Origin: a virus | IMG/VR virus record: IMGVR_UViG_3300027782_000027 | Location: 124,001-188,000 of that record | Reading direction: 5' to 3' (one strand) | DNA length: 64,000 bases | In this document: in pieces, positions 17,298-61,529 of the stretch | Layout: each line of letters starts with the position of its first letter | Numbering within the stretch: position 1 is the stretch's first letter | Notes under the pieces: model-generated | The model's input: only the letters and a program-made list of their open reading frames with translations | What the model was told of the DNA's origin: nothing | Databases searched by the model: none | Position numbers and translations under genes: made by a program

Positions 17298-17756
17298 ATG
17301 GCTCAAGGTAAAACATACGGTATAACATTTCCATTTAGAGATTCTTTTGACGGTAAATATTTAGATTTAACTGACTTTGATGAAGATGAGGTTAAAACAG
17401 ATTTAGTTCATTTACTATTAACAAGAAAGGGAAGCAGATATTTTTTACCAAATTTTGGGACAAGATTATATGAATATATTTTTGAACCACTTGATGGTCC
17501 AACATTTAATGAGATTGAAACTGAAATAAAAGATTCTGTGACAGCGTATATTCCTAATCTTCAAATTACATCAGTTAAAGTTGAACCAATTATATCACCT
17601 GATGGACAATCGGATTTATCGACAACTTTTCCTGGAACAGGTGAAATAACTTTACCTGATTTAGCAATTAATGAACACACTGCAAAAGTGACAATAAATT
17701 ATAATATTACGAGTGGAGTATTTAATACTTCTGACTTTATAATTATTAATATATAA
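17298..17756 (+). CDS. 25: Baseplate wedge protein, gp25-like
   Basis: A 152-residue member of the GPW/gp25 family, which in contractile tails joins the wedge to the first sheath ring and starts sheath assembly. Recognisable features are an N-terminal ITFPFRDS, then TDLVHLLLTRKGSRYFLPNFGTRLYEYIFEP, and the paired strands ITSVKVEP and KVTINYNI. These are the usual family landmarks (R-G-x-R/x-x-P-x-F-G). The stop is one base before the gp6-like gene, as in the 25-6 pairing of many contractile phages. Confidence 0.9.
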   Translation: MAQGKTYGITFPFRDSFDGKYLDLTDFDEDEVKTDLVHLLLTRKGSRYFLPNFGTRLYEYIFEPLDGPTFNEIETEIKDSVTAYIPNLQITSVKVEPIISPDGQSDLSTTFPGTGEITLPDLAINEHTAKVTINYNITSGVFNTSDFIIINI

Positions 17757-17757
17757 C

Positions 17758-19593
17758 ATGGCTCAACAAATATCATATACCACAAGGGATTTCCAAGCAA
17801 TAAGATTAGAACTAATAAATTATGTTCAGACTTATTATCCTGATTTAATTCAAAATGTTAATGATGCTTCGGTATTTTCAGTATTCTTGGATTTAAACGC
17901 TGCGGTTACTGATAACTTAAATTTTAATATTGATAGAGCGTTACAAGAAACTGTTCTACAATACGCTCAAAAAGATATATCTGTTTATAACATTGCAAGA
18001 ACATACGGTTTGAAGATACCGGGATTAAGACCTTCGATTGCTCTTTGTGATTTTTCTATAATAGTTCCTGTTGATGGTGACTCTGAAAATTTACAATATT
18101 GTGGGGTTTTACGTAGAGGTAGTCAAGTATTGGGAGCGGGTCAAACTTTTGAAAGTTTATATGACATTGATTTTTCTTCAGAATATAATTCAGAAGGTTT
18201 TCCAAATAGATTAAAAATTCCAAATTTTAATGCTAACGGAAGTTTAGTGAATTATACTATTTTAAAAAGAGAACCTGTGGTAAACGGTGTAACTAGAGTA
18301 TTTAAAAAAGTTATATCACAAACAGACTCAAGACCATTTTTAGAAGTATTTTTACCTGAACAAAATGTCTTAGGTGTTACAAGTGTTCTTTTAAAGAACG
18401 GAAACAATTTTACAAATATTCCATCTGCTCAAGAATTTTTATCAACAGTTGATAGATGGTATGAAGTTCAAGCTTTAGCTGAGGATAGAATTTTTATACC
18501 TGACGTGACTAAAACATCAGATAATCCTGGTATTAAAGTTGGAAAATATTTACAAACAAATCAAAGATTTATTAGTGAATATACACCACAGGGGTTTCTT
18601 AAATTAACTTTTGGTGGTGGTAATCAATCTACCGATGAATTATTACGACAATATGCTTTAAATGGAATTACTTTAGATATCTCAAAATATCAAAATAATT
18701 TCTCTTTAGGTTCTACTTTAAAACCAACTACAACATTGTTTATTCAATATCGTGTTGGTGGTGGATTACAAAGTAATATAGGCGTAGGAGTTATGAATCA
18801 AATTGGAACAATTAATTTTTCTGTAAATGGACCTAACTCTCAACAGAATTTAAATACCATTAACTCTCTTCAGGTGAATAATGTTACTGCGGCAGTGGGA
18901 GGGGCGAATGCTCCAACAATCGAAGAAATTAGAAACTTAGTTGGATTTAACTTTGCTTCACAAAACAGAGCGGTAACTATTAATGATTACGAAGCAATTT
19001 TAAGAAAAATGCCTTCGATGTTCGGAGCTCCGGCAAAAGTTGCGATAACTGAAGAAGACAACAAAATCAAAATTAATATCTTATCTTACGACACCGAAGG
19101 TAATTTATCAAGTAATGTGTCAAATACATTACAAAGTAATATTGCTAATTACCTATCAAATTACAGAATGATAAATGATTACATTTTTGTAAATTCTGCT
19201 AATGTAATTGATTTGGCGTTTGATGTCTCAGTAGTATTAGATGCTAGTCAAAATCAGGGAACAGTTATTACAAACTTGGTTGAAAAGGTTCAAAACTATA
19301 TGAGTCCATTAACAAGAGAAATGGGTTCAAATGTCTACATATCAGAAATAAGAAGATTAGTACAAGAAGAAGTTGGTGTGATAACTGTGACAGATATTAA
19401 AGTTTATAATAAAGTAGGGGGGCAATATTCATCATCTCAAACTTCACAAAGATATTCAAATAGTGATACTAAACAAATTGAACTTATTGATGATACAATA
19501 TTTGCAGAACCGACACAAATTTATGATGTAAGATATCCTAATAAAGATATTCGAATCATAGTAAAGAACTTAACTGCTGTTAACTTTAGCTAA
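17758..19593 (+). CDS. 6: Baseplate wedge protein, gp6 / baseplate J-like
   Basis: The main wedge protein of contractile baseplates. Residues 1-85 hold the conserved start of this family: YTTRDFQAIRLELINYV, SVFLDLNAAVTDNLNFNID and a QKDISVYNIARTYG segment. The middle contains the long beta-rich part (RVGGGLQSNIGVG). From about residue 385 comes the IEEIRNLVGFNFASQNRAVT, NDYEAILRKMP stretch found in baseplate J-like proteins. At 611 residues it is close to T4 gp6 (660). It is one base after the gp25-like gene. Confidence 0.9.
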   Translation: MAQQISYTTRDFQAIRLELINYVQTYYPDLIQNVNDASVFSVFLDLNAAVTDNLNFNIDRALQETVLQYAQKDISVYNIARTYGLKIPGLRPSIALCDFSIIVPVDGDSENLQYCGVLRRGSQVLGAGQTFESLYDIDFSSEYNSEGFPNRLKIPNFNANGSLVNYTILKREPVVNGVTRVFKKVISQTDSRPFLEVFLPEQNVLGVTSVLLKNGNNFTNIPSAQEFLSTVDRWYEVQALAEDRIFIPDVTKTSDNPGIKVGKYLQTNQRFISEYTPQGFLKLTFGGGNQSTDELLRQYALNGITLDISKYQNNFSLGSTLKPTTTLFIQYRVGGGLQSNIGVGVMNQIGTINFSVNGPNSQQNLNTINSLQVNNVTAAVGGANAPTIEEIRNLVGFNFASQNRAVTINDYEAILRKMPSMFGAPAKVAITEEDNKIKINILSYDTEGNLSSNVSNTLQSNIANYLSNYRMINDYIFVNSANVIDLAFDVSVVLDASQNQGTVITNLVEKVQNYMSPLTREMGSNVYISEIRRLVQEEVGVITVTDIKVYNKVGGQYSSSQTSQRYSNSDTKQIELIDDTIFAEPTQIYDVRYPNKDIRIIVKNLTAVNFS

Positions 19594-19644: not shown

Positions 19645-22600
19645 ATGCCGTCAACATATAGAATTAGAACAGAGTTAGGGGTAAACAAGACCATTCAGGT
19701 TAAGTTAGAACAAAATTACGACACTTTAGAGTTATTGTCTTTAACAATTTCGCCAAATAATTTATATACTCGTGCTTGTGCGAATTATGGTGTTGTTTGT
19801 GGTAGAGTTTTTTGTAATAATGGTTTTGGATTACCAAACGCAAGATTATCTATTTTCATACCTATTGATGAATTAGATATTACAAATCAAGATATTTCAG
19901 TTTTATATCCTTATCAGAGTATTAATGATATTAATGAGGATGGTTATAGATATAATTTATTACCTTATACACAATCTCATAGTGGACACGTTCCTGTTGG
20001 TACTTTCCCTGATAGGATTGACGCTCTAATTAACAAGACAGTAATTGAGGTTTATGATAAGTATTATCGATTCACAGTGAGTACAAACGACTCTGGTGAC
20101 TTTATGATACTTGGAGTCCCGACAGGTCAACAGACGTTGTTTATGCAAGTCGACCTTTCTGATATTGGTGAGTTCTCAATGACACCACAAGACCTGATAA
20201 GAATGGGTCTTGCTACTGAATCACAAGTTGACGGAACAAGATTTAAATTTTCAGAAAATTATAATGAGTTACCTCAAATTATTAGTATTTCAAAAACAAT
20301 ACAAGTCTCACCATTTTACGGTGAACCTGAGATATGTGATTATTCAATCCAACAGGTTGATTTTGATTTAACCTCTGAAAAAAATGTAACGATATCACCT
20401 ACTGCGGTTTTTATTGGTTCAATATTTTCAGCGAATGAAGGAACTAAAGTTACTAATACAAATAATAATGCTTGTAATGTTAAGAGGAACCTTGGTGAGA
20501 TGTGTGATTTAATTCCTGGTTCAGGTCAAATATTAGCATTAAGACAGACAATTCGCTTAGATAATTTAGGTCTCCCAATTATCGAACAATTTACATTAGA
20601 GAATGATGGTAAAATTATAGACCAAGACGGTACTTGGGTAACTGAGGTACCGATGAATTTAGATTATGTTTATACTGATGAGGAAGGTAATAGAAGAATA
20701 AGTGATAATCCTAATATCGGTATTCCTACCAAATCAAAATATCGATTTAAAATTAAATGGGACCAATCACCACAATTATCAGAATCAACTAAACGAGGAT
20801 ATTTTTTAGTTCCAAACATTAAAGAATATGGTTGGATTAACCCTACAAATGACCCGAATTTACAAGACTTAGTTGATAGTATTTTCACCATTGAAATTCC
20901 TGCGGGGACAACAGAATCATTTATTTATAATTTGATAAATGAAAATGAAGCCACCGCATATGTTTTTAGACTTAATGAAACGGTTAACGTTAATAATTTA
21001 AAAATAACTTATCCTGACGGAACGGTCTATAATAGTCAAAATTTTAGTAACAATTTTATAGGTGGTTTTCCAAACTTTAATTTATTTTGGGAATCACCTG
21101 ATTCCGAAACGGTAGCAACATTTATTTTTTACAAAATAAATTATACAAGATTTCAGTTAGAAGCGTCTTACGCTTTTAGTTTAGATTGGAATGATTACGC
21201 TAATGTCGATGATGCTTTGAGTTGTGAGGATACTTTTATGGAGTTGTATTTTAATAAGGTTTATACAATTAGTCAGATTATTGACAGGTACTCAACAGGA
21301 TTAAGACCTAGTAAAACTGTTCAAATTAAAAATATTCAAGACCCAAGTTGTGACGGTAGTATAAATAAATTTCCAATTAATGATGTTTTTTTAAGAATTA
21401 ATTTTAATTATATTTTTAATAATTTTTTACTTGATTTACTTAAATATATTTTAATTTCTTTAGTGCCGGCACTACATGTGTTAAGTTTTTTATGGTTAGT
21501 TTTAGCACCAATTATTGCGGTTATTCTATTAGTTGTTCAGTTAATAATTTTTATCATTTGTAATATAGTCAGAGGTATACAAAATATTTTTGGTAATTCT
21601 AATTTAGATTGTTCACCTCCTTCAGATTTCAGAAGTTTACTTCTTAATAATCCATTTAAAAATATAACATTATCTCTTTTACTTTATACCGAAGATGGTT
21701 GTGAAAGATGTAATTGTAAATCTGGTGAAATAACTGCTGATACTGATTTAATTGGTCAATTTACTCAGGTTCAAGAAGAGCAAGTTTCTATTTTAATGGA
21801 TACTACGGGATTCCAAACTTATACCAACAATTCAAACGATGTAATTTATGTGTCCAATTTGATTGCTGGAAATGCTGGTGAAGATGGTTTAAAAAGAAGA
21901 ACTCCCATAATTAAAGACAAATTAACATTAGTCACTGACCCTGATGCTGTAACTAGAACAATTGACATTGGATATTATTCACAATCTTTAACTTTTTCTG
22001 AAAGGTTAAATATGTTATCTTTTCCTGGTAGGTATTTTAAGGTTGGAGATAAACTAGACCCTTTGGGTATAAAAGTTTACATAGAACCAGAATTAAATAC
22101 TAGTATTGGTTCATTTCCAATATTCGACAGTACAACCCAAACCGTTCAACAACAAATCGTTGTTGGTACATCAAAGTTTCATTGGGATAACGCGATGATA
22201 ATCGCTTTGGACCCTGGAATTGATTTAACTGTTGGTGAAATCTTGAGTTTTCAAAACCCAAATCTTTCGAATGACCCAAACTATAAAAGAAACGAATCTT
22301 ATCCTGCGTCTTCAGGTCTTACCCAATCACCTCCAGTTTTTAATGGTGAAAGTATTGTTGGTGGTCAAATTACTGTTAATTGGACCCGAACGTATAATTT
22401 TACGACTTTAGCTAATGGTTATCAAAATCCGGCAGGACCAATTAATGGAGCAGCAGGCGGAGGAGTTGCGGAACAAACAACTTATAATGTTTCAGCAATA
22501 ACTGAAAACAATACTGTTACATCATTTGCTGCTGACATCGAATATTTTCAGGTGTTGAAAATTGGAAATTTAAACGATTTAAATCTAATTGCAGGTCTAA

Positions 22601-25236
22601 ATGGTATAAATGGTGTATTAAATCAAAATCAATATTACCGTAGTCAAGGAAGTGATGATGATGGTGAAGTCAATTGTTTTTATCTGAGGTTTAATTATTA
22701 TAATCCGACATTTGGTAGTGTTGGAGTTATATCAAATCCTGATAGTTATAAATACGCGATTTTAATGAGAGGTGTTGATGTCCATTCGCCAAGAGTTAAA
22801 CAAAAAATATGGTTAGGTAGTTTATTTTCTAATCAAGTCGATGAATCAAATATTCCCAACGATGTTAATGAATCGGATGTTTATGTTGAAGGTTATTTCA
22901 AACTGAATATCCCATACCAACCAAATACTTCAACTATTTTAAACGAAGAACAACAACAAGTTCAATGTCGACACAATCAGCTTCAAACTAATAATAGTGT
23001 TGACCAATTCGGTGGACGTATTTTCTACCCGAGTTATATGTTTCAGTATTACGACACTTCGTATATACCATTTCAAAGTGACCTACATTTATATTACTCT
23101 GCTTACGACGCTAGAAATTTCCCAGGAAATATTTTAAATGTTGTTCCTGAATATGATGAACTCTACCTTACTACTGGTACTCAAACAACAACAGATTCGG
23201 GGTTTCTTAGAGTTGATTTTAGCAATTTTTTTACAGGTTCTCTTTCTATCTTAAAAAATTGTGGTCAAAGTGCTGCTGGTGGTAATAATAACGATTGTGA
23301 TGATGATTTAGCACCTAATTTTCCACAAACACTCCAAAAAACATGGAATTTTTACGAGCAATTTGATAATTCCATATTTGGAGATTTTTTGGCGAATTAT
23401 AGAATAGGACAAGTTGTTGAGGGAGGTTCTATGTATGCGTATAAGAACGGGAGAAATTTCTATGACAGTCCATGTCAAGGTGATACTGACGACCAAGATA
23501 TGAAGATTCCGTCGAACATACCGACCATGAAATACCTTTCACCTTCATACCGAACAATAACATCACCTGGTACAACATATCCAACTGTAAACTTTAATAA
23601 TAGACAAAGAATTGTTGTTAGGTCAAATAGAATGCCAACCTCAACAAACGAACAAATTTCAGGACCAAATAGTTTCCAATTACATCAGAATTCAAGATTT
23701 GCTGTCTACAGATTATCAGATACTGGTGGTGTACAGGAATTAGAAAACATAACACAATACCCAACAAATTCGGATAATGAATCGGCTTCCGCATTTGTTC
23801 CATTTACGAATGTTTTAGAATCTGTAAATAATTGTGAAAAAGCGGTTATGCTAAATTGTTATGGTACTGATGAAAATGGTAGTCCTATTATTAAAGACGA
23901 CTGTCCGCAACTTATGGACCCTGACGGACCTAAAAAATTCTTTAACTATGGAACAGGATGTTATAATTTAATTTCGAGAGCTTTTGGTAGTTTACCAAAA
24001 GATTTGGAATTGATAAATGAATGGTCAAGTAGAAATAAAATTTCAAATGCAGTTTGTTTGGGGGTATTCTCACATAGTTTTTCCAACAATTGGATTAACG
24101 GAACTTTATTTGCCTATCCATTTGAAAATAAAAGATTTTTTGATTCTCAAAATCAACCTTATAGTATTTTTTGTAAAAGTTTAATTTATTTACATGAAAC
24201 ATCTCAGAATTTTTATTATAGAAGTTCTGCATGGGACGGGGATAGATTTTTAGGTAAACCATCGGTAGTTTATAATGAGAAACAAGTCGGTAACGAAAGG
24301 TATTTAGGAAGTCCGACAACTATTATGGATTTAGGGCCTAAAGATACCTTTATACAGGAATTAGTTAATACTGATGAATATGATGGGTATATTGTATCAA
24401 AAGTACCATCAACATCCTATAAAGATATTAGTGAAATATTTAATTTATTTGTTTTAAGTAGATTGGTAAATAATAGTTTTATTGAAAATTTATTAATTTC
24501 TCTTTTACCTGAAATTGTAATGGCGACGTTCTTTACAAATAAAAGATGGGGAGCGTTTAATGCTCTACCGGCATATGTTGATGGAGATTATTCACAGATG
24601 TTATCAATTAACTCTGAATTTGGAATAAGTGAATTTAACGTTTCAAATTACGCTCAACCATTAGACTCAGGATTTCAGTCGGTTTATTTTGGAGGGTCGG
24701 GAGCGTATCCTTTATTTGGAATATTCTTAACTGGTAACACACAAGATAGAGATTTTATCACACCGAGAAGAACTATATGGAATCCAAACGCCTCTATTAA
24801 CCAAAACCCTGATTATAACTTTAGTCAAATACCAGTGAAAACTCAAACAGTGCCATTTTATCAGTGGAAATTAGATAACCAAAACTACTCTAGTATTGGA
24901 CAGTATACAATTTTTGGTAATCAAAATAACAATTGGGTTACGGATTCACAAGTAACACCACCTAATTTCTTTTCTTATGGATATCAGAATATGGATAGAC
25001 TTAATCCAGCTTCAAATTATTTTCAACCTGACGGTAATAACTCTAATTATTTTAGAGCAACATTAATTAATTTCTCAAGTGGTATACCGACAATTGCTCT
25101 TCCACAGACATTTAGTAATAATACAAGTTTTGTTGTTGGAGCTCCACAACACTTTTATTTTGGTTTGGTAAAAGGAGGAAGTGCTATTGATAAGTTTAGA
25201 ATAAAATACGTTAATACAGAATTAATAATTGAATAA
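19645..25236 (+). CDS. Giant structural protein with an internal membrane-like segment (1863 aa)
   Basis: A very large virion protein of unknown exact role. Residues about 48-165 look like a carboxypeptidase-regulatory-like beta sandwich: GRVFCNNGFGLPNARLSIF, later TNDSGDFMILGVPTGQQTL and VDLSDIGEFSMTPQDLIRMG. Residues 594-644 form about 50 nearly uninterrupted hydrophobic residues with a central PALHVL and PIIAVILLVV, enough for two membrane helices. A Cys-rich DGCERCNCKSGE follows near residue 690. The rest is Asn/Tyr/Ser-rich and unassigned. The position after the gp25- and gp6-like genes suggests a baseplate protein. The hydrophobic stretch could be buried in the particle until DNA ejection and then enter the host membrane, which is inference. 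Confidence 0.6.
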   Translation: MPSTYRIRTELGVNKTIQVKLEQNYDTLELLSLTISPNNLYTRACANYGVVCGRVFCNNGFGLPNARLSIFIPIDELDITNQDISVLYPYQSINDINEDGYRYNLLPYTQSHSGHVPVGTFPDRIDALINKTVIEVYDKYYRFTVSTNDSGDFMILGVPTGQQTLFMQVDLSDIGEFSMTPQDLIRMGLATESQVDGTRFKFSENYNELPQIISISKTIQVSPFYGEPEICDYSIQQVDFDLTSEKNVTISPTAVFIGSIFSANEGTKVTNTNNNACNVKRNLGEMCDLIPGSGQILALRQTIRLDNLGLPIIEQFTLENDGKIIDQDGTWVTEVPMNLDYVYTDEEGNRRISDNPNIGIPTKSKYRFKIKWDQSPQLSESTKRGYFLVPNIKEYGWINPTNDPNLQDLVDSIFTIEIPAGTTESFIYNLINENEATAYVFRLNETVNVNNLKITYPDGTVYNSQNFSNNFIGGFPNFNLFWESPDSETVATFIFYKINYTRFQLEASYAFSLDWNDYANVDDALSCEDTFMELYFNKVYTISQIIDRYSTGLRPSKTVQIKNIQDPSCDGSINKFPINDVFLRINFNYIFNNFLLDLLKYILISLVPALHVLSFLWLVLAPIIAVILLVVQLIIFIICNIVRGIQNIFGNSNLDCSPPSDFRSLLLNNPFKNITLSLLLYTEDGCERCNCKSGEITADTDLIGQFTQVQEEQVSILMDTTGFQTYTNNSNDVIYVSNLIAGNAGEDGLKRRTPIIKDKLTLVTDPDAVTRTIDIGYYSQSLTFSERLNMLSFPGRYFKVGDKLDPLGIKVYIEPELNTSIGSFPIFDSTTQTVQQQIVVGTSKFHWDNAMIIALDPGIDLTVGEILSFQNPNLSNDPNYKRNESYPASSGLTQSPPVFNGESIVGGQITVNWTRTYNFTTLANGYQNPAGPINGAAGGGVAEQTTYNVSAITENNTVTSFAADIEYFQVLKIGNLNDLNLIAGLNGINGVLNQNQYYRSQGSDDDGEVNCFYLRFNYYNPTFGSVGVISNPDSYKYAILMRGVDVHSPRVKQKIWLGSLFSNQVDESNIPNDVNESDVYVEGYFKLNIPYQPNTSTILNEEQQQVQCRHNQLQTNNSVDQFGGRIFYPSYMFQYYDTSYIPFQSDLHLYYSAYDARNFPGNILNVVPEYDELYLTTGTQTTTDSGFLRVDFSNFFTGSLSILKNCGQSAAGGNNNDCDDDLAPNFPQTLQKTWNFYEQFDNSIFGDFLANYRIGQVVEGGSMYAYKNGRNFYDSPCQGDTDDQDMKIPSNIPTMKYLSPSYRTITSPGTTYPTVNFNNRQRIVVRSNRMPTSTNEQISGPNSFQLHQNSRFAVYRLSDTGGVQELENITQYPTNSDNESASAFVPFTNVLESVNNCEKAVMLNCYGTDENGSPIIKDDCPQLMDPDGPKKFFNYGTGCYNLISRAFGSLPKDLELINEWSSRNKISNAVCLGVFSHSFSNNWINGTLFAYPFENKRFFDSQNQPYSIFCKSLIYLHETSQNFYYRSSAWDGDRFLGKPSVVYNEKQVGNERYLGSPTTIMDLGPKDTFIQELVNTDEYDGYIVSKVPSTSYKDISEIFNLFVLSRLVNNSFIENLLISLLPEIVMATFFTNKRWGAFNALPAYVDGDYSQMLSINSEFGISEFNVSNYAQPLDSGFQSVYFGGSGAYPLFGIFLTGNTQDRDFITPRRTIWNPNASINQNPDYNFSQIPVKTQTVPFYQWKLDNQNYSSIGQYTIFGNQNNNWVTDSQVTPPNFFSYGYQNMDRLNPASNYFQPDGNNSNYFRATLINFSSGIPTIALPQTFSNNTSFVVGAPQHFYFGLVKGGSAIDKFRIKYVNTELIIE

Positions 25237-27013
25237 ATCTAACGAAATAACTATAGTAAAAGGTTCTGCAAGATATGCGGGAGCACCCGATATTGATTCT
25301 AAAATATCAGTTGAATTAAACTCAACATTAAAGGAGATGACTGAATATGACAGAAATCTACTTGTTGATTTAGAAAATTTATTTGATAGAGAAAGACAAG
25401 AGTGTGATACTTTTGTCCCGACATGTAAGTTTACATTTATATTTGAAAATTCATATAGTGGACTTACAGGGCCTAAAACTGGCCCTTACGACCCGATTAA
25501 CAGAAATCTTTATTATGTTAATCCTTTATACTATCGTCTTTTACAAAATGACCAACAAGACCCAAGTAATGAGATTGCGTGGGGAGGATTTCCACAATAT
25601 TATGAGTTTGATTTTATAAGAACAGATTCTAATGTGGTTGGATATACCCAACCACTTGTAGGTCAAACTCCTCAGTATCATATCTTATTTGACGCTAAAG
25701 AACAATCATACTATAATTGGTTTTTTCATTTAAGCTATCCGTCTGAAAAATATTTTAATCAATCGATGGAATATCAGTTTGAAGATGGTGAAATATTTAC
25801 ATGGACTGTTTCTCAGGGAATTCCTTTTGTCATTTCAAATGATAAATTTAATGGTCAGCCTGTTATTATCTTTAAATGTGCAATGGACCACGGATTAAGT
25901 GTTGGAGAAAGTGTTGAACTTTCTTTAAATTGTGATGGTGTTAATATTTTTGATGTTTATAGGTTAGGCGATGGATATACTAATTCTGAAACAAATGTTT
26001 TTATGATTTTTAATATTGGTTTCTTATGTGATATCTTTTTTGATGGACAAAAAGGAACTTTAAAAAGAATTACAAATAAAGAAAATTTAAATGAAAGTAA
26101 ATCAGAATATTATGTTAGAAGACATAAAATTATTACAAATTATACTGACGCTATCTTAACTAACACCGCTTTTGAAAATAACGCATTTAGAAAAACCACC
26201 AAATTTGAGACAAAGTCATTAACACCAAATTTAAGCGCTCGAACATCACTAAAAGAAGGAACACAAAGTTATAGTTTATCGTTTAAAAATACATTCTCAA
26301 TAGATGGATTAAAAGATAATTTAAATAGACCTCTAACTGAATTATATGTTACATCTGTTAATCGAGGAAGATTTGGATTTTTTAATCCATTAAAAAAAGG
26401 ATGGGGGTTTAATCTTGGTCCTGAATTAAATACATGGTGGGGTAATCCAAACAATGAAACAAATATAACTCAAACGAGTTTTAATAGACCTGGACCATTT
26501 ATTACAGATTCATTCGGAAATCCTGCTGGAACATTAATAACATTTTATTATAATAATCCATTAGAAGTTGATGATTTAATTGATGGGGATTTATGTGAAT
26601 GGAATGATACCACACAAGAAGAGCAAGTTTTAAGTTTACATTATCATAAAATAACATTTAATCCTAAAGTTTTTGATGTAAAACCAAATAGTTCTTTGGG
26701 CTATTATTATAATACACATTACAAGTTTCAGTTAAGAACATTTTCATCTTATATCGAAAATGTTGATAGAGATGTTTTGGTATATAATCTACCAAGTTAT
26801 AGTTATTACTCGGCCTATAACCAAAAGTTTTTTTGGAGAGATATTTACACGTATGGATATATTGATGTTGATGGTGTAGGTGTAGACAATCCATTTTTAA
26901 ATAATAAACACTATTTGTTTGAAGATTTTATTTTCAGATTGATACCTGAAGGAAGTAGTATCAATGAAAATTCAACATTAGTTAATGACCCATTAATCGA
27001 CGATTGTGAATAA
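25229..27013 (+). CDS. Structural protein, unknown (594 aa)
   Basis: Starts with TTG, overlapping the end of the preceding gene by eight bases; the first in-frame ATG would remove 36 residues including a conserved-looking GSARYAGAPDIDSK start. No family is recognised. The protein is rich in aromatic residues, Asn and Asp (NPLYYRLLQ, YYNWFFHLSYPSEKYF, FFWRDIYTYGYIDVDGV), typical of beta-rich virion proteins. It lies inside a run of tightly packed genes with one- to eight-base overlaps that includes wedge proteins, so a baseplate or tail role is likely. Confidence 0.65.
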   Translation: MNKSNEITIVKGSARYAGAPDIDSKISVELNSTLKEMTEYDRNLLVDLENLFDRERQECDTFVPTCKFTFIFENSYSGLTGPKTGPYDPINRNLYYVNPLYYRLLQNDQQDPSNEIAWGGFPQYYEFDFIRTDSNVVGYTQPLVGQTPQYHILFDAKEQSYYNWFFHLSYPSEKYFNQSMEYQFEDGEIFTWTVSQGIPFVISNDKFNGQPVIIFKCAMDHGLSVGESVELSLNCDGVNIFDVYRLGDGYTNSETNVFMIFNIGFLCDIFFDGQKGTLKRITNKENLNESKSEYYVRRHKIITNYTDAILTNTAFENNAFRKTTKFETKSLTPNLSARTSLKEGTQSYSLSFKNTFSIDGLKDNLNRPLTELYVTSVNRGRFGFFNPLKKGWGFNLGPELNTWWGNPNNETNITQTSFNRPGPFITDSFGNPAGTLITFYYNNPLEVDDLIDGDLCEWNDTTQEEQVLSLHYHKITFNPKVFDVKPNSSLGYYYNTHYKFQLRTFSSYIENVDRDVLVYNLPSYSYYSAYNQKFFWRDIYTYGYIDVDGVGVDNPFLNNKHYLFEDFIFRLIPEGSSINENSTLVNDPLIDDCE

Positions 27014-27779
27014 AATTAAATTAACAAATAAAGATATTAATAGAAATATTAATATCCCAATTAATATGAATTGGGATTTCTTGGATAGAGAAGATACTTT
27101 AATTAAGTATGAAGAAGAAGTTCTAAATAAAATTTTGGGATTTCCAAATGATTACGAGGTTAGAAGATTTGAAATGTTTCAAAATCCTAATAATGATATA
27201 ACCTCATCATTAACATATAATTTTAATTTTAAATCAACAACTAATGATGATTGGGTTTTAAATTATTCTGATTCAGGTCGATTTACTCAGAGAGAACTTT
27301 ATAATAACACAAAAATATACGACAAATCTTTTTTTAAATTAGATTTTTACGATACAACAAATCCTCAAACAAAAAAAAATTATTTAACAATAATTCTTAA
27401 TAAAAGACCAAATAAAACAACATATACTTTTCCAAATCAAATCACTCCTGTTGAAATTGATTTACCATCATTTACTTTAAATTACAATAAAAATCAAGAG
27501 GGATTTTTTATTTATTGGTTTGATGACCCATCAATCTTAAACATTAGTACTTTGTATATGACAGCAAAGTTCTTCGATGCGTCAAACGGACAATTTACTT
27601 CTTTTACAACAAAAAAACAAACAACATCAACAACACCATATCGTTTAGGAACTGATTTTTTTAATAGAAGAGTTAGTTTTAATTATGTTGATAGCACATA
27701 TAAAATAACACTTATGGACCAACCGGCAACACAAGAAAATGTTATCGAATGGTATGAGTATATAAACCCATCAATATAA
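27006..27779 (+). CDS. Structural protein, unknown (257 aa)
   Basis: A GTG start overlaps the preceding stop by eight bases. The start context (TGAATAA, protein starting MNK) mirrors that of the gene before it. The protein is beta-strand-rich with TNDDWVLNYSDSGRFT and a Thr-rich FTSFTTKKQTTSTTPYRLG segment, and has no recognised domain. The stop overlaps the next ATG by one base. It is part of the same translationally coupled structural run. Confidence 0.65.
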   Translation: MNKIKLTNKDINRNINIPINMNWDFLDREDTLIKYEEEVLNKILGFPNDYEVRRFEMFQNPNNDITSSLTYNFNFKSTTNDDWVLNYSDSGRFTQRELYNNTKIYDKSFFKLDFYDTTNPQTKKNYLTIILNKRPNKTTYTFPNQITPVEIDLPSFTLNYNKNQEGFFIYWFDDPSILNISTLYMTAKFFDASNGQFTSFTTKKQTTSTTPYRLGTDFFNRRVSFNYVDSTYKITLMDQPATQENVIEWYEYINPSI

Positions 27780-28861
27780 TGGAAATTTTTAAAGTTAAAA
27801 TATCACCTGAAGTTTTAAAAGACGATATTGTTTATGAAACATATAGTGGTTATACATTTGGTGTTTACAGTGGATTAACAAATATTCTTAAAGGAGGTCC
27901 TGATGGTTCTTCTTTATTGACAGGTCTTACCATACCAATTTTATTAAAACAAAAATATCAAGATATTGGATACTATGATGGTTTTGATGGTAAGATAAAA
28001 CAAGAAAATATGTCTGCAAATTTTTTGTTTTATTCTACAATAGAAAATCCATATACTTTTAAAATACTTAATACTTCAGATAATGAAAATGTTTATTTGT
28101 TTAACTCGACCTACCAAGTTGATTGGGGGGACGGAACAACACAAACAATTACCACATTTTATCCTGAGGAAATTACACATAACTATTCAGGACCTTTACC
28201 TGAACCGACAGGTTATACAATTACATTAACACAAACAAACTTATGGGGTGTAATTCAAGTCAAAAAGAATATTGTTGTTCCATACTCAGTCGCTCAAAAT
28301 ACTGACCAATATGGAACCGTAACATTTGCTAACACTAATGGAAGTTGGAGTGCAACTCCGTCATCATATAATTTTATTTTTACAGGAGATGCTTATAATC
28401 AGTTAGCATATCAAGTAAGTTCTTTCTATACTGAGGTTCCATTTTTCGTAACAGGATATACTACATCAAGATTAAATGATTTGGGAACTTATGGACCAAG
28501 TCAATTTGTTGTTGGACAAACAGTTCCATTACCACAAAGAGAATATGGTATGGTTGAATCCATGAGTAGTGCTTATACTGCGTATACTATAAACGGAACA
28601 ACCTACCAAGATTATCCTGACGGAACAACAATTTTTGTATTACCATCTTCAGGTATGACTTCAGATATGTTTTCAGTTAGTGCAATTACTAAAAATGAAG
28701 CGTTAATGAATGTTATTGACCAACCTCAGTTATATAATTCAATTTTTGTTGAACGTGGTAAAAATTCAGGGGTTGAAAACTTTTTGAGATTAGGTGAAGT
28801 TTCTAATTTAAGCGATTTGTTAAATTATGGATATAACTATTTCATTATAAAACAGGGATAA
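27779..28861 (+). CDS. Structural protein with a PKD-like domain (360 aa)
   Basis: Residues about 90-165 have the hallmark of a PKD (Ig-like) domain: YQVDWGDGTTQTITTF followed by a HNYSGPL segment and the closing strand GYTITLTQTNLWG. PKD domains usually mediate surface or carbohydrate contacts and are common in Bacteroidota surface proteins. The flanking parts are unassigned. The start overlaps the preceding stop by one base and a 51-base gap follows, so it ends this coupled run. Confidence 0.7.
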   Translation: MEIFKVKISPEVLKDDIVYETYSGYTFGVYSGLTNILKGGPDGSSLLTGLTIPILLKQKYQDIGYYDGFDGKIKQENMSANFLFYSTIENPYTFKILNTSDNENVYLFNSTYQVDWGDGTTQTITTFYPEEITHNYSGPLPEPTGYTITLTQTNLWGVIQVKKNIVVPYSVAQNTDQYGTVTFANTNGSWSATPSSYNFIFTGDAYNQLAYQVSSFYTEVPFFVTGYTTSRLNDLGTYGPSQFVVGQTVPLPQREYGMVESMSSAYTAYTINGTTYQDYPDGTTIFVLPSSGMTSDMFSVSAITKNEALMNVIDQPQLYNSIFVERGKNSGVENFLRLGEVSNLSDLLNYGYNYFIIKQG

Positions 28862-28877
28862 GAAATTTAAATTTAAC

Positions 28878-28885
28878 TATTTATA
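28878..28885 (+). promoter_or_regulatory. TATTTATA motif before the 301-residue gene
   Basis: An exact TATTTATA sits in the 51-base gap before the TTG start at 28913, ending 27 bases upstream of it. Confidence 0.4.
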
Positions 28886-28912
28886 AAAATAAACTACTAA
28901 AGCAATAAGAAC

Positions 28913-29818
28913 TTGGCAACTGGTAATTACGGAACTATAAGATTGGCAGACGTTAGTCCTGCTGATGTTGAAATAATATTAAATTATACACCATCAAGAG
29001 ATGACACCCAAGGGTTTGTTTTGAAAAAATTAAACTCACTTGAGTTATTGCGTCCTTACTTTAGTAATTCAAGTGTTGGTGGGACTACTACGGAGATATT
29101 AGGAGGATTGTATAATCTTACATTACCATCAACTGAGTTTAACAATTTGGGGATTTACACTTTGATGTTACGTCCATCTCAAATCAGAACATCAATTACT
29201 GATTGTGGAGTTTTATCTGCGTTACCAAATGTGAGAGGTATTATTATTGACTTAAATAATGTTCCATCAGAGTATCTAAACAAGTTTGTTAATCAAGGAT
29301 TAGTTGGATATAGGATTGAATACCTTAATAATGACGGTTCTAAAGTTACTAATTTTTTTAGAATAATAACTTCATCTTTTTATTGTGAGGCAATTTTAGC
29401 AAACACTAATAATACAAGTGATAAGGCGGTAAGATATAGATACACAGATAGTGAAACTAATCTAATGTTCTGCACAGTATCACCAAGTTCATCACCATCA
29501 AATAAACCAAACGTTACACCATTCATTGGTTCACCAGGACAAAATGTTATTATTACTAATACATTTTTTGACCCTACAGTAATTGAGGTTGAGATTGTAG
29601 AATATGACACATCAAGTTTAGCGATTGCTCTTTATGGTAATCAAACTAAATCTATTGAAGATGGTATATACACAATCTATGATAGTGATAATAACATTTA
29701 TAAGCAATATAACTTGTACGAAATTAGAGACCAATTTAATGAACTTCTATATGAAGTTAGACAAGATAGAAATAATAATATTGATTTCACTAAAAACTTT
29801 GACAATATCATTGCTTAA
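28913..29818 (+). CDS. Structural protein, unknown (301 aa)
   Basis: The TTG start is followed by GCA ACT (MAT), like the ATGGC starts of several neighbours, and no earlier start is available after the previous gene. The N-terminal third (GTIRLADVSPADVEIILNY) and the segment GIYTLMLRPSQIRTSITDCG look like an ordered beta domain. A Ser/Pro linker (SPSSSPSNKP) divides it from a C-terminal part ending in IYDSDNNIYKQYNLYEIRDQ. No family is recognised. The stop overlaps the next start by one base, coupling it to the 988-residue tail protein. Confidence 0.65.
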   Translation: MATGNYGTIRLADVSPADVEIILNYTPSRDDTQGFVLKKLNSLELLRPYFSNSSVGGTTTEILGGLYNLTLPSTEFNNLGIYTLMLRPSQIRTSITDCGVLSALPNVRGIIIDLNNVPSEYLNKFVNQGLVGYRIEYLNNDGSKVTNFFRIITSSFYCEAILANTNNTSDKAVRYRYTDSETNLMFCTVSPSSSPSNKPNVTPFIGSPGQNVIITNTFFDPTVIEVEIVEYDTSSLAIALYGNQTKSIEDGIYTIYDSDNNIYKQYNLYEIRDQFNELLYEVRQDRNNNIDFTKNFDNIIA

Positions 29819-32784
29819 TGGCTAATTACACTTGTCCACCGCAAAGACCATCAGGTTCGGGAACATTTTCGAATAACTTAGTCGGTTTACAAATAACCGA
29901 TGGTGGTGGACTAACGCAAGGTAATTTTACATTTACAAGTGTTATAACTGAAAAAACTAATAGGAACTTTTCGGTTGGGGTATTTTCAGAACCAATTTCA
30001 TTAGAAACTCTTGGGTTTGAAGATACGGTACAAGCAAGGTCAATATTTGATAATAATTTTAAATTATATCCAAACTTTGACGAAACAGATGTTACAAATT
30101 TTGTTGGTTATGGTTCATTATCAAAAAGGTTTGAGTCTGCGGTTACAAATATTATAAATTATTTTCCGGCGTCTATTGATGTGTCAAAATATCGACCAAA
30201 TTTTACAACAGGTGCTACGGCAACAGGTATAACATACAACGTTAATGAAAATGAAACAAAACTCATTATTCCGTTAGAAACAGTTAGAAATCCTTTTTCA
30301 GTAAATTATACAACAACTTCAACACAAACAATTAATAGTTTAGAATTTAGTGTTTCAAAGTATAGAGATATGTCTAAAACATTTTTAAGTTATGTTTTAG
30401 TTTTAAATTCAAATTATTATCCTCTTACATTTATGGACCCAAGTACTTCTATAAGTGCTGGTACATTAACAATTTATGTTCAGGGTAATCCTTTTTCGGG
30501 ATTGTCGACGTATAGTGAATTCTTTTTAATTAGACCAAACGATACAATTGTCAATGAAGTTTTTAATTTAGAATTAGGTGAAGTTGAAGAAATTTTATTG
30601 AATAGAATGGTTACACCTATCTATACTTATGTAGCGACAGTCCCATCAATTTCTGATTCTGGATTAATTTATAACGCAACACAAACAGTTACTTTTCCAT
30701 TAGACGGTCCTTGGAATTTAGATATTAGAACAAATGCATTTATTACTTATATTGAAAGTTTACAATCATTAGGTTTAGATTTTGATAACTACAGGACAAA
30801 TATCATATCTAGATTTTATACAACAAATGCGTTTAAAGATTTTGATACATCAGACCAAAAGGTTGACAAGGTATTAAAAATATTTGGAAGAAGTTTTGAT
30901 GAAACAAAAAAATATGCTGACGCTATTCAACATGTTACATCTGTAAATTACAATGTTGGTAATGATATTCATTCAGGACTTCTTACAAAATTTGCGGAAA
31001 CTTTAGGGTGGAAAACAAACATATCACCAATAGCTGATTCGGCTTTTTTGGAATCGGTTTATGGAACTACTGAAAATGCGTTTCCGGCTTATTCGACAAG
31101 TGAAACTAAATTAGATTTAAATTACCAATATTATAGAAATTTAATATTAAATTCGGCATATTTGTTTAAATCCAAAGGAACTAGAAAGGCGATAGAATTT
31201 CTTTTAAATTTTATCGGAACACCACAAGCGTTACTTGAATTTAATGAAAATGTTTATTTGGTTGATTCCAAAATAAACATGGATAGATTTAATCAATTAT
31301 ATCGAAGTATTTCAGGTGGAACTTACGCTCCACAATTTCCGGCTTTAGACTCAACGAATGTTTATGGGTTCTTAGGTAATACATACACTGGTTATACTAC
31401 ACAACAAGTTGTTGAAGAAGTAACTACATCTAGAAACGACTACCCTGTGGATAATGAAGGATATCCAGCCAAACCAACATATAGTAATGATTACTTTTTT
31501 CAAAAAGGGGAAGGTTGGATACAATCAACACCACAACATAGAAGCCCACAAATTGTTTCTATAAATACAAATACATTTACTGGGCAAAATCTTAGTATAC
31601 AAACAAGTTTAGAACCTTTTACTTATGGTGAAAAATATTTGGAAAGATTTAGAGATTTTCCATTTATGGAACTTGGGTTTTCAATTAAGAAAGAAAGTGA
31701 TAACAAAAAAAGTTGGTATGACCAAACAAGTGATTTACGAAAAAACACGGATAACTTATTTGACGCTTATTATACTGTTAGTGATGATAGATATGTTTTA
31801 AATGTTAAGAATACTGATATATTTTTAAATCCTGCACAAGCGTTGGCTTATGATGTTTGGTATATGTCTAACACACAAAATTACCCAATACCATTTACAG
31901 GGTTATCTTCACCATATCCACAAATAGGTGGTACGGACTGGACGTTTATTAATCCTCAACCACAAATAGAAAACTTCTTTGAGTTTTACAAGACGTTTTG
32001 GATGAACATGATTAATGTTAGAAATAGACAAATTTCATCTGACGGTAAAACAAGTGGATATCCAACTTTACAATCTTTATTTTGGAAATACTTAACGATG
32101 TATCAAGATGTTGGAATTCAAAACAATAATTTCACATACCAAAATATGATAAACTATATTAATGGTTTAGGTTCATTTTGGATTAATTTGATAGAACAAT
32201 TTGTCCCGGCTACTACAATATGGAACACAGGAACAAAATTTGAAAATTCTATTTTCCATAGACAAAAGTTTATTTATAGGATGCAAAAAGGATGTCAAAT
32301 TGTTTTACAGGAAATTGTTGGACCAGTATCAACAGGAACTATTAGCACTAACAATTGTAATAGTGTAACATTCCCACTTCCAATACCGACAATAAATGAT
32401 TTAGGTTCGGCACTTAGTAACGCTTCCGAAGATTTAGCAATTCAAGAAGGGTTTCAGGATGGTTATACAACGGTATCTGCTTTGTATGGTTTTGAATTTA
32501 CAATAAGTAATTTTAATGGGACAAACTCATATACGTTTACTTACAACGATTCCGCTTATTATTACACCCCTAATTTATTACCTACTAACGCACAATGGAC
32601 TAATATTATAAATCAAGGTATATTGTATTTTGCAAGTTCAGGACAACTAAATGACGCAGGAATTCAAATTATTCTTGATTCAAATGATAATGTTATTAAC
32701 ATAGTAACACTATCGTGTGAATTCAGTGATTGGGAAATATCTGATTTCTCGATATTAACACAAGTATCAATTCAAGGACCATAA
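29818..32784 (+). CDS. Baseplate wedge/tail protein with gpI/gp7-like region (988 aa)
   Basis: Residues about 345-475 contain a helical block ending in YRNLILNSAYLFKSKGTRKA and IEFLLNFIGTPQALLEF. The L-x-KSKGTRKAIEFLL-x-x-IG pattern is typical of P2 gpI-like tail proteins, a fold also shared by the T4 wedge protein gp7. Together with the gp53-, gp25- and gp6-like products this would complete a wedge set. Residues 1-340 are beta-rich. A later PFMELGFSIKKESDNKKSWYD and the C-terminal half are unassigned. It overlaps both neighbours by one base. The gp7 equivalence is an inference from size, position and this single motif. Confidence 0.65.
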   Translation: MANYTCPPQRPSGSGTFSNNLVGLQITDGGGLTQGNFTFTSVITEKTNRNFSVGVFSEPISLETLGFEDTVQARSIFDNNFKLYPNFDETDVTNFVGYGSLSKRFESAVTNIINYFPASIDVSKYRPNFTTGATATGITYNVNENETKLIIPLETVRNPFSVNYTTTSTQTINSLEFSVSKYRDMSKTFLSYVLVLNSNYYPLTFMDPSTSISAGTLTIYVQGNPFSGLSTYSEFFLIRPNDTIVNEVFNLELGEVEEILLNRMVTPIYTYVATVPSISDSGLIYNATQTVTFPLDGPWNLDIRTNAFITYIESLQSLGLDFDNYRTNIISRFYTTNAFKDFDTSDQKVDKVLKIFGRSFDETKKYADAIQHVTSVNYNVGNDIHSGLLTKFAETLGWKTNISPIADSAFLESVYGTTENAFPAYSTSETKLDLNYQYYRNLILNSAYLFKSKGTRKAIEFLLNFIGTPQALLEFNENVYLVDSKINMDRFNQLYRSISGGTYAPQFPALDSTNVYGFLGNTYTGYTTQQVVEEVTTSRNDYPVDNEGYPAKPTYSNDYFFQKGEGWIQSTPQHRSPQIVSINTNTFTGQNLSIQTSLEPFTYGEKYLERFRDFPFMELGFSIKKESDNKKSWYDQTSDLRKNTDNLFDAYYTVSDDRYVLNVKNTDIFLNPAQALAYDVWYMSNTQNYPIPFTGLSSPYPQIGGTDWTFINPQPQIENFFEFYKTFWMNMINVRNRQISSDGKTSGYPTLQSLFWKYLTMYQDVGIQNNNFTYQNMINYINGLGSFWINLIEQFVPATTIWNTGTKFENSIFHRQKFIYRMQKGCQIVLQEIVGPVSTGTISTNNCNSVTFPLPIPTINDLGSALSNASEDLAIQEGFQDGYTTVSALYGFEFTISNFNGTNSYTFTYNDSAYYYTPNLLPTNAQWTNIINQGILYFASSGQLNDAGIQIILDSNDNVINIVTLSCEFSDWEISDFSILTQVSIQGP

Positions 32785-34946
32785 TGAGTTATAGTATTAC
32801 ACTTACAGGAGATTGTTCAAATAACAATAATGGAGCGGTAAATATACAATTTTTTACCCCACCACCAACTATTATTAGTTGGACTGATAATAAATTACCT
32901 ACTCAGACATTTACGGGTAATAGTATTACGTATAGTGGATTAAGTGCTGACACATATTCTTTTTCATTTACATCTTCTACTGTTCCAGTAAATAATATTT
33001 ACGGACCAATAAGTTTTATAGTTCTTTCATCAACTACCGCTAATATTACCACAGGGTATCAATCAAGTTGTTCTCCAAGTAATGGTTATTTAACTGTTGA
33101 TGTTAACTTGGATATTTTTGATACTGAATTATATCCGACATCTGTTAATATTAATTTATATAAAGATTATCAATTTTACGAGACCATAATTGGTAGTGGT
33201 AGTCTAACGTCTTTCTTTAATTTAGGTGAAGGTATGTATTACGCATCTATTTCAGGAAATGGTTTTTGTAATTGTGAGACTGAATCAGTTGTTATACATC
33301 CAAATACGGAGTCTTTAGACTTTAATTTTTATGTTGTTAATAACCCTGCTTGTTCAGGTGTTGATGGTAAGATATATGTAACAGGTATAACTGGTACACC
33401 TCCATATACATACATTTGGTCTCAAAATATTGGATATACCGGAGCAACTACATTAGTTACAGGTGTAACTCAAGGAACGTATACTTTAACAATAATTGAC
33501 GGGGCAGGTTGTGAATTGTCAAAAACTGCAGCAGTTGGTTCAGCACCATTTATTGGGTTGATTAGTTATGAAGTTACACAACCAACTTGTTTTACTTCTG
33601 ATGGTGTTTTAGACATTTATTTGTCAGGTGGGACAGGACCTTATTTTTATTTATTAAGTAATGGTGATTCTGTTACCACGTATAGTTCTTCAGTTTCTTT
33701 CTCAGGGTTAAGTGCTGGTTTATATAGTCTGAGTGTTACCGATGTTGCTCTTTGTACTTTTACATCATTCTTTACGTTATCAACACCTAAAGTTTTCACA
33801 TTTATTTCTGCGGATGTTATTAATTCACAATGTCAATATAACGGTGGTTCAATTGATATTACTCTTTTAGGTGGAACTCCACCATATTATTACACTTTAG
33901 ATAATAATAGTGGAACAACTAATAATGTCTCAAGTTTAATTACAACAAATACTTTTTCAGATTTATCATCAGGAACCTATACTCTTACAATATCTGACTC
34001 AAGTAGTGCGTGTACTTACTCACAAAATTATAATGTTCTTAATGAAACCTCGTTTAATTTTTCATTAAGTGCTCGAAGTAATTATTGCACTTACAATAGT
34101 GGGGCAATTCAGGTTGATGTTACACCAAATACTACTGCAGATACATTCTATACTTATTCTATTTCAAGTGGGTTTAGTTCCGCTCCGACAACGGCAACAA
34201 CATATGTATTTAACAATTTACCACCTGATACATATGATATAACAATTTCAGATTCTACAGGATGTACTCAAAATAGTTCAGTGGTGGTTGATTATCTTGC
34301 TCCTTATAATTTGGTTCTTTACGGTACTGATTGTGGGACAGGTAGTGGGGGAACAATAAGCGCGATGATTAATGAAACGGATGGTCCATTTGATTTGACA
34401 TGGAGTGATAATGTTAATGGTCAGACAGGGGTTTATATTACAGGTTTAACTGCCGGGACTTATTCTTTGGCGGTTAGTGGAGTGAATAATTGTGAGACAA
34501 CAAAATACTTTACAATTAGTTGTAATCCTCCGAGAACGGCTAGTTCAACTTACTCCTATTCAATGGGAACTAAATCTTACATACCATCTTCATTCTTGAA
34601 TTTCTCAAATATGTTATCGAAAGGTTATTTGAGTTTAATCGACGGACATACAAGTTGTAAACTAAATTATGCTAGATTTTTCTGTGATGTTGAATTAAAC
34701 AACATAACTTATTCTGGTTCATTTTACACTTCTAAAACACTTACAAGTGTTCCCACATTAAGTGCGTTTACAAATGGTATAGGTTATTTATTTGACACAA
34801 TTCCTGATTTAAAATCATATGAGATTAACCTTGATACTAACACAATAAATGTTGAATCAGATGTTGTTGGTGGTGTTGAAGTTTATAAGGATGAAGTATT
34901 AACAATTACTGTAAGAATAGTTTATAAAATTTCATGTCTAACATAA
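32784..34946 (+). CDS. SprB-like repeat adhesin (720 aa)
   Basis: Contains about six or seven tandem Ig-like repeats of the SprB type. The clearest are at residues 189-245, 267-328, 346-412, 433-499 and 515-572. Each runs from a Cys and a G-x-I/L-x-V strand through GGT-x-PY (TGTPPYTYIW, GGTPPYYYTL) to G-L-S-A-G-T-Y-x-L-x-V-x-D-x-x-x-C. These repeats are named from the Flavobacterium gliding adhesin SprB and are common in Bacteroidota surface proteins. The last 130 residues form a different, unassigned domain that may attach it to the tail. The start overlaps the previous stop by one base. A fibre or receptor-contact role is inferred. Confidence 0.78.
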   Translation: MSYSITLTGDCSNNNNGAVNIQFFTPPPTIISWTDNKLPTQTFTGNSITYSGLSADTYSFSFTSSTVPVNNIYGPISFIVLSSTTANITTGYQSSCSPSNGYLTVDVNLDIFDTELYPTSVNINLYKDYQFYETIIGSGSLTSFFNLGEGMYYASISGNGFCNCETESVVIHPNTESLDFNFYVVNNPACSGVDGKIYVTGITGTPPYTYIWSQNIGYTGATTLVTGVTQGTYTLTIIDGAGCELSKTAAVGSAPFIGLISYEVTQPTCFTSDGVLDIYLSGGTGPYFYLLSNGDSVTTYSSSVSFSGLSAGLYSLSVTDVALCTFTSFFTLSTPKVFTFISADVINSQCQYNGGSIDITLLGGTPPYYYTLDNNSGTTNNVSSLITTNTFSDLSSGTYTLTISDSSSACTYSQNYNVLNETSFNFSLSARSNYCTYNSGAIQVDVTPNTTADTFYTYSISSGFSSAPTTATTYVFNNLPPDTYDITISDSTGCTQNSSVVVDYLAPYNLVLYGTDCGTGSGGTISAMINETDGPFDLTWSDNVNGQTGVYITGLTAGTYSLAVSGVNNCETTKYFTISCNPPRTASSTYSYSMGTKSYIPSSFLNFSNMLSKGYLSLIDGHTSCKLNYARFFCDVELNNITYSGSFYTSKTLTSVPTLSAFTNGIGYLFDTIPDLKSYEINLDTNTINVESDVVGGVEVYKDEVLTITVRIVYKISCLT

Positions 34947-34971
34947 TCTAACAAAAACTATTTATGTTAGA
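34937..34971 (+). promoter_or_regulatory. Perfect 10-bp inverted repeat over a stop/start junction
   Basis: TCTAACATAA (34937-34946) and TTATGTTAGA (34962-34971) are perfect inverted copies around a 15-base loop. The left arm carries the stop codon of the SprB-like gene and the right arm reaches the first base of the next ATG. In RNA it could hide the next start codon. No U run follows, so it is not a standard terminator. Confidence 0.45.
34959..34965 (+). promoter_or_regulatory. TATTTAT motif before the Thr-Pro-linker gene
   Basis: TATTTAT ends five bases before the ATG at 34971 and overlaps the right arm of the inverted repeat there. Confidence 0.35.
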
Positions 34972-35975
34972 TGAGTTTAGTAACAATTAGCAATTTATCG
35001 GGTATTCCTCCTTACCAAGTTTCTGTCTGTGATATCTTTCAGTTTTCTTGTGTTACGGTAACAACAATTTACGATTATATTCCTCCGGCATATTCTTTTT
35101 ATTTACCAAGTGGTTTTAATAATGCTCCGAAAGTATTAATTAAGATTGTCGATTCTACGGGGTGTATTTTTACAAGTGAGTATGAATGTTTAACACCAAC
35201 TCCAACACCGAGTATTACTCCGTCAATTACACCTACGATTTCACTTACACCTTCTAATACTCCGACACCAAGTATTACTCCATCAGTTACTCCAACATTA
35301 TCGATTACTCCGACAATTACTCCGACACCAAGTATTACTCCGTCGATTACACCTACTAATACTTTAACACCAACACCTACTGTGACACCTACTTTAACTC
35401 AAACTCCTGAAGTTGGAAGATATGCTTATTTATTTATTGAACCTTATTCTGGTTCGTCATCTATTGGAAGTTATATGAATTCTATAGGTTCATCATTCTA
35501 TGGATTTACAAATGCTACAAGACCAAGTACTTCGGCATCTACGTTCCAAACGGATATGCAAAACTATGTTAATTTCTCGGGATGGTCAACAGGTTTATTC
35601 CCACAAGTAATAAGACAAACGATACCTCAAACAACGGGAGGACTTGATAGTTATGGTAATCCAAGAATTGCATACAATTTCTTAACAACACTTGTTCCTG
35701 AAAATTATACCCAAAGTAAGGCTTGGTATACTTGGATAATACCAACTAATCTTACAAATAACAAATACCAAATGGAAATTGATTTGGGGATTGTTAATCC
35801 GAATGTGTTTACGAGTTATAAAATGGAACCAACCATTTATCAAAATACGTTTACATATGTTGGTCCAACCATTGCAAATACAACATATAGGGTTTATACA
35901 ACATACCCATCAACTTCGTTTGAGATAGATAATACTTACGACCTTTATTTTAGAGGAAGTAAGGTTGATATATAA
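34971..35975 (+). CDS. Modular fibre-region protein with Thr-Pro linker (334 aa)
   Basis: It has three parts. Residues 1-74 are a small head ([16 protein letters not shown], ending in a Cys-containing strand) that is related to the head of the 88-residue protein at 62418. Residues 75-146 are a Thr/Pro/Ser linker of repeated TPTPSITPS-like units. Residues 147-334 are a tail starting [13 protein letters not shown] and ending near LYFRGSKVD. This tail is related to the C-terminal domain of the protein at 43547 (YAYVFAEPQ, YYFKG). Such mucin-like linkers often separate domains on cell or virion surfaces and can be O-glycosylated. A fibre or attachment role is inferred from position. Confidence 0.75.
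35193..35408 (+). repeat. Thr-Pro-rich linker repeat
   Basis: 72 codons of TP-x-x units ([20 protein letters not shown]) inside the 334-residue protein. Related linkers occur at 43982-44116 and 62643-62681. Confidence 0.85.
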
Positions 35976-39372: not shown

Positions 39373-39375
39373 GAT

Positions 39376-40086
39376 ATGAAATTTACATTTACTACTTTTT
39401 GTTTTGGTGAAAGATATTATAACCAAGTTAATAGATTTATTGGTGATATCGTAGAATCAGATTATAAAACAAATTTGGTTGTCATTACCGATGACCCAAG
39501 TAAGATTAATAATCAAGAATTTGTTCACGCCTTCAACATTAATGATTTTAATCCAAATTATTTGGAGTATGCTAAAAACTACTATGACTTTGATTTTTCA
39601 GTTAAAAGATATTCGTTAAGAGCAGCTTTAAGTATTGGTTTTACTAAAATCATATTAGTTGATTGTGATATGAGAGTTAACCCATCTTTCTTTAATGAAG
39701 AAAAGATTTTGGGGGCGTTTGATGAGAATTGTTTATCAGGGCCAGTTACCTATAATTTTCACGAACAAGTTCATACTAATAGTGAATTAGGTAGACGATT
39801 ACTTGAGTATGAGAAATACTTTAATCATGAGGTTGATAAAGATAAGTTGGAGGTTATGCCTGAAGATTGTATTCAATACTTGAGTATTGATGAAGATAAG
39901 TTTAATGGTTTTTTAGATACTTGGGACAAGTGTATTGAATATAAAAAAGAAAAAGGTTTGAGAAACATACCCGCTGGTAACATAGATGAGATGTGTTTTT
40001 CAGCATTATTTAATGGAATTGAAATAAAAAATAACGCTTATAAAGCATCAAATATAATATACGCAGAACATGACAAATGGTACTAA
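39376..40086 (+). CDS. Glycosyltransferase-like protein with DxD motif
   Basis: This 236-residue protein has a nucleotide-sugar-binding type start (TFTTFCFGERYYNQVNRFI, NLVVITDDPS) and a GT-A-like metal motif IILVDCDMRV (Asp96-x-Asp98). A later IPAGNIDEMCFSALFNG resembles the acceptor-side region of such enzymes. It is shorter than many glycosyltransferases but has the main landmarks. It starts three bases after the GlcNAc-transferase-like gene and overlaps the next by 17 bases. Sugar and acceptor are unknown. Confidence 0.65.
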   Translation: MKFTFTTFCFGERYYNQVNRFIGDIVESDYKTNLVVITDDPSKINNQEFVHAFNINDFNPNYLEYAKNYYDFDFSVKRYSLRAALSIGFTKIILVDCDMRVNPSFFNEEKILGAFDENCLSGPVTYNFHEQVHTNSELGRRLLEYEKYFNHEVDKDKLEVMPEDCIQYLSIDEDKFNGFLDTWDKCIEYKKEKGLRNIPAGNIDEMCFSALFNGIEIKNNAYKASNIIYAEHDKWY

Positions 40087-43545: not shown

Positions 43546-43546
43546 T

Positions 43547-60629: not shown

Positions 60630-60641
60630 TAAGTATAAAAT

Positions 60642-61520: not shown

Positions 61521-61529
61521 TATAATAAT

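Follow-up and report, generated by a model that had tools for sequence, protein, structure and literature searches.

A seven-domain SprB-repeat protein as a probable tail component of a large phage with a likely Bacteroidota host

Introduction

SprB of Flavobacterium johnsoniae is a gliding adhesin, which is secreted to the cell surface by the T9SS and contains the repeat described by the Pfam family PF13573. The same repeat is present in the phage protein analyzed here, which is far smaller than SprB and, unlike SprB, possesses neither a sorting domain nor an evident signal peptide. Tandem arrays of a Bacteroidetes-associated domain were described in tail-associated proteins of Bacteroidetes phages as the crAssphage-type BACON arrays, and for one BACON lineage it was reported that the array was built by duplication and is distinct from the bacterial copies (PMC6949934). 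By analogy, these arrays can be regarded as the closest described case in kind. However, they consist of another domain family and belong to gut phages, while the array described here is encoded in a myovirus-type baseplate block and has a nearly constant number of seven domains. BACON was not among the Pfam matches of the phage protein up to an E-value of 10.

The best match among solved structures is GhpA of Aureispira (PDB 9flp, 9fly, 9flw; structure 3.7e-17, profile 4.4e-5), which is likewise composed of tandem Ig-like repeats but is a bacterial grappling-hook protein that has a far larger number of domains and a length of about 5,900 residues. The TM-scores to the GhpA pieces of 0.14-0.30, as low as expected for the whole chains of flexible proteins, indicate a match at the domain level, which does not define how the rod is shaped as a whole. 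The Ig domains of phage whisker and decoration proteins (9occ gp24, E 4.3e-4; 5lxk, E 0.013) share a similar GGTxPYTYxW motif; these matches are short and confined to single domains, and the proteins occupy other sites of the virion.

Relatives of the phage protein are already named 'SprB repeat' in the databases and are uncharacterised, and a literature search under the terms tried found no paper describing SprB-repeat phage proteins. The top match in BFVD is A0A6J5LD72 ('SprB repeat', uncultured Caudovirales phage; UniProt/BFVD), which has 714 aa and is 48% identical along its full length (E 1.6e-72). It belongs to the same family and length class, and the search yielded no more than its database name.

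SprB-type repeats and domain organization

The window, i.e., the whole stretch of 64,000 nucleotides that was analyzed, comprises bases 124001-188000 of a 240,759-base virus record (Table 1). In its 720-aa protein the first-pass annotation had recognized repeats of the SprB pattern, for which it had named a profile search as the check. The search with Pfam-A bears this reading out: PF13573 matches in four separate stretches with an E-value of 7e-11 and 42 bits, the curated cut-off being 28 bits. In a genome-wide scan the best SprB repeat of the whole virus record reached 5e-11 and the scan of 14 control genomes gave no match; 15 of 16 relatives pass the PF13573 cut-off. The annotation had put the number of clear repeats at five, with one or two weaker ones in addition. 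The repeat type is correct and the count too low, as a profile made from the protein's own repeats yields seven repeats of ~80 aa within residues 3-581 (approximately 3-78, 87-173, 178-253, 258-334, 338-420, 424-504, and 508-581), a number that leans on this self-built profile but is also obtained in most of the diverged orthologues of 28-33% identity.

Table 1. Features of the window that are discussed in the text.
Feature	Position	Strand	Basis
Baseplate wedge proteins, gp25-like and gp6-like	17298..19593	+	PHROGs 261 and 43; 219 and 6
Conserved tail block: 1863-, 594-, 257-, 360-, and 301-aa proteins	19645..29818	+	Present in 93/96 relative loci
988-aa conserved tail-module protein	29818..32784	+	Directly upstream of the SprB-repeat gene in 92/92 viral loci
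SprB-repeat protein, 720 aa, probable tail protein	32784..34946	+	Pfam PF13573, repeat profile, AlphaFold2 model, orthologues of same design
Seven SprB-type repeats, residues 1-584	32784..34535	+	Repeat-profile matches; all-beta domains in model
C-terminal alpha/beta domain, residues 604-720	34593..34943	+	Model pLDDT, helices and strands, invariant Cys625/Cys718
Fibre-like protein of 334 aa with a Thr-Pro linker, at the start of the variable fibre cassette	34971..35975	+	Sequence
Second SprB-repeat tail-region protein, 694 aa, two repeats	62737..64000, continues beyond window	+	Genome match 1.4e-5

The AlphaFold2 model, built with 48 orthologues (mean pLDDT 80, pTM 0.31), consists of all-beta domains in succession followed by a separate alpha/beta domain of residues 604-720 outside the repeat array, which contains helices 607-619 and 659-670 in addition to strands and is modelled with a pLDDT of about 81-92 from residue 611 onward. 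Aligned over the whole domain of ~80 aa, the phage repeats are homologous to bacterial SprB-type domains (hhalign 99.4%, E 2e-21), and the positions of the Cys, GGTxPYTY, and GTYxVxVTD motifs coincide; since the phage profile had served to collect the bacterial sequences, the independent test is the Pfam match. The cysteine noticed earlier in the repeats is present as one of a pair: thirteen cysteines are conserved without exception in all 48 orthologues (11, 96, 162, 190, 243, 269, 324, 350, 410, 435, 494, 625, 718), with one pair in each of the repeats 2 to 6 and one pair, Cys625 and Cys718, in the C-terminal domain, and repeat 7 has three further near-constant cysteines. The cysteine content of the protein is 2.6%, compared with 0.4-1.0% in four neighbour proteins. 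One disulphide is predicted in most of the domains.

Relatives and age of the seven-repeat array

Relatives of the SprB-repeat protein are encoded by 397 viral contigs, the best 80 of which were kept. Among 90 copies longer than 600 aa seven repeats were found in 84, eight in five, and six in one that is cut by a contig end; these locus counts include some from the same contig and are thus not all independent, with 60 non-identical full-length proteins underlying them. At 723-736 aa, the five copies scored with eight repeats are of ordinary length, and their higher count is therefore probably due to split matches. The near-constant number of seven, kept down to about 30% identity, suggests from the sequences a length-critical rod.

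In a tree of the single repeats of seven phages, the nearest neighbour of all 49 repeats is the repeat of the same position from another phage. Across the deepest split the next-nearest neighbour is also of the same position for repeats 1, 2, 3, 4, and 7 and barely for 5, not for 6, and the deep branching order of this tree stays loose. As the repeats group by position across phages, the seven-domain design probably predates the divergence of these phages, and a recent capture from the host is not favoured. Variability is not markedly higher in any one of the seven repeats than in the rest, so that no clear receptor-binding tip emerges.

The only match to the protein in the phage collection, in the 642-kb record LR756502.1, was rejected as an orthologue, since it is a secreted protein of T9SS type. 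This protein of 1,670 aa (L069:13924-18936; record labelled uncultured phage) matches SprB 13 times and has a sorting domain of T9SS type B. Either it is a secreted adhesin that the phage encodes, or the record includes bacterial DNA.

Tail module and neighbouring genes

The phage encodes proteins of the large-myovirus kind, including the gp25-/gp6-like baseplate wedge, SSB, a UvsX-like recombinase, a DnaB-like helicase, and ribonucleotide reductase. The gp6-like protein has its nearest named relatives in Flavobacterium phages immuto (26% identity), and a Microcystis phage matches as well. After the wedge genes follows a block of seven genes (1863, 594, 257, 360, 301, 988, and 720 aa), which recur in 93 to 95 of the 96 relative loci and of which the SprB-repeat gene is the last; wherever upstream DNA is available, it directly follows the gene of the 988-aa homologue (92/92 loci). 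The identity to far relatives amounts to 28-33% for the SprB-repeat protein, 46-54% for the 988-aa protein, and 70-72% for the 301-aa protein. Few proteins of the block have thus diverged as far as the SprB-repeat protein, a pattern that an exposed part would be expected to show. For the 988-aa protein a search of 50,697 phage records returned no homologue, a profile search of the 988-, 301-, 360-, and 594-aa proteins against solved structures yielded neither a convincing baseplate match nor a name, and the PHROGs search of the tail block did not usefully name these proteins.

The SprB-repeat gene forms the junction between the conserved tail block and a variable fibre cassette. In 50 non-identical loci with 2 kb of downstream DNA, a homologue of the 334-aa fibre-like protein is encoded within 2.5 kb of the SprB-repeat gene in 28 and a Thr-Pro-linker protein of any kind in 40. 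Six of the 60 full-length copies carry the Thr-Pro linker inside the same ORF as the SprB repeats, at the C-terminus in L132, L165, and L169 and at the N-terminus in L157, L138, and L143. In the window, two fibre-like proteins (34971-35975 and 43520-44755, +) have long Thr-Pro linkers in common, and the start of the first resembles by eye part of a SprB-type domain. The second SprB-repeat protein scores 24.2 bits in Pfam, below the cut-off of 28, and relatives encode similar proteins with two or three repeats.

Further genes of this region were observed. A run of glycosyltransferase-like genes lies within the fibre cassette (38128-43147, +), the first of which matches PF11397 (1.1e-68). A single ORF of 4,766 aa (44785-59085, +) consists nearly entirely of Gly-X-Y triplets with Ser and Thr (GSSGTSGSSG...), has a G+C content of up to 48% compared with about 30% around it, and may be described as a collagen-like or fibre giant. 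It is followed by three tandem Gly-rich paralogues of 292-298 aa (59733-62408, +), each with a terminal 'GLVII.CW'-like motif.

Host

The absence of a Shine-Dalgarno signal and the promoter pair TTTG-N17-20-TANNTTTG are traits of Bacteroidota. At the start codons no Shine-Dalgarno signal is present (0.5%, compared with 0.9% in shuffles), the promoter pair occurs five times upstream of genes with 0.6 expected, and the family alignment retrieved 30 bacterial loci, every one of them from Bacteroidota. The Bacteroidota host that the first-pass annotation had read from the repeats is supported by these signals and by the hhalign homology; it is likely from the sequence, with no genus named by any of the signals. 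The motif TATAAATA, a T4-like late-promoter motif, was found 10 times upstream of genes in the intergenic regions of the window and its flanks, with 3.1 expected; the phage thus has other promoter-like motifs as well.

Discussion

Taken together, the SprB-repeat protein is probably a structural part of the phage tail, a rod with a C-terminal domain. This reading is based on its position in a tail block after the gp25-/gp6-like wedge genes, directly 3' of the 988-aa gene, on the seven repeats with same-position neighbours across phages, on the missing T9SS sorting domain that the bacterial relatives possess, and on the resemblance of its domains to the tandem Ig-like repeats of GhpA and, more weakly, to neck whisker and decoration proteins. 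The rod would be formed by seven tandem SprB-type immunoglobulin-like domains ending in the alpha/beta domain, with the latter possibly docking or oligomerising at the baseplate periphery. In the virion, of which the protein is presumably a component, the rod would project outwards as a whisker or stalk and would space or carry the variable fibre proteins encoded beside it, a fibre role that is suggested by the adjoining and fused Thr-Pro linkers. It may also touch the Bacteroidota cell surface in weak first contacts. Such a tail part would probably be an ordinary though unstudied one that is widespread in phages of Bacteroidota.

Phage virion proteins often contain Ig-like domains, and the weak profile matches to decoration and whisker proteins with their similar GGTxPYTYxW motif would also fit a surface decoration with non-specific binding to mucus or environmental polysaccharide, comparable to the Ig-like capsid decorations and without a role in fibre attachment. 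We consider this unlikely, as the gene closes the tail block and is in some copies fused to fibre-type linkers.

The first-pass annotation had linked the repeats to the gliding machinery. SprB and RemA were reported as possible phage receptors and phage resistance was found to result from gliding mutations (PMC13288928, PMC7345892), so that, together with the full-domain homology to Bacteroidota surface repeats, the array might be a receptor-binding mimic whose repeats attach to the gliding adhesins of the host, to the tracks of these adhesins, or to their glycans. However, SprB repeats also occur outside gliding proteins. In three bacterial genomes, one of them a Bacteroidales MAG, many different ORFs match SprB, with totals of 75, at least 150, and 132 matches, and a secreted fucoidanase carries one SprB repeat (PMC7698502). 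The SprB repeat is therefore a generic extracellular module of Bacteroidota proteins that says little on gliding when it is present in a phage, and the gliding-specific reading is not favoured. The array is moreover old, fixed, and position-specific and no recent copy of a host protein; its conservation across phages argues for a structural role in the tail over the capture of a look-alike adhesin. The link to gliding is thus not supported, and the mimic is very unlikely.

It is extremely unlikely, and we reject it, that the protein is displayed on the infected host cell for superinfection exclusion or altered adhesion, as might be supposed from its bacterial relatives, which are secreted surface proteins with the T9SS sorting domain TIGR04183 in 4 of 4 checked: the linkage of the gene to tail genes is strict, NCBIfam gave no match of the phage protein to TIGR04183/TIGR04131 at E-values up to 10, and no signal peptide is evident by eye, the N-terminus MSYSITLTGDCSNNNNG being devoid of a hydrophobic segment.

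With regard to the origin of the tail rod, a host adhesin domain could have been taken up long ago by large Bacteroidota phages and duplicated to exactly seven, giving an obligatory, disulphide-stabilised baseplate rod under length selection that still recognises the surface sugars of the host adhesin. This elaboration is distinctly unlikely; if it were true, the repeats on the host surface and the phage rods would compete for ligands. More generally, a repeat of Bacteroidota adhesins, secreted enzymes, and predatory hooks is also a constant component of the tail gene module in a widespread group of large phages, and the name 'SprB repeat' in a phage should not be read as a link to gliding.
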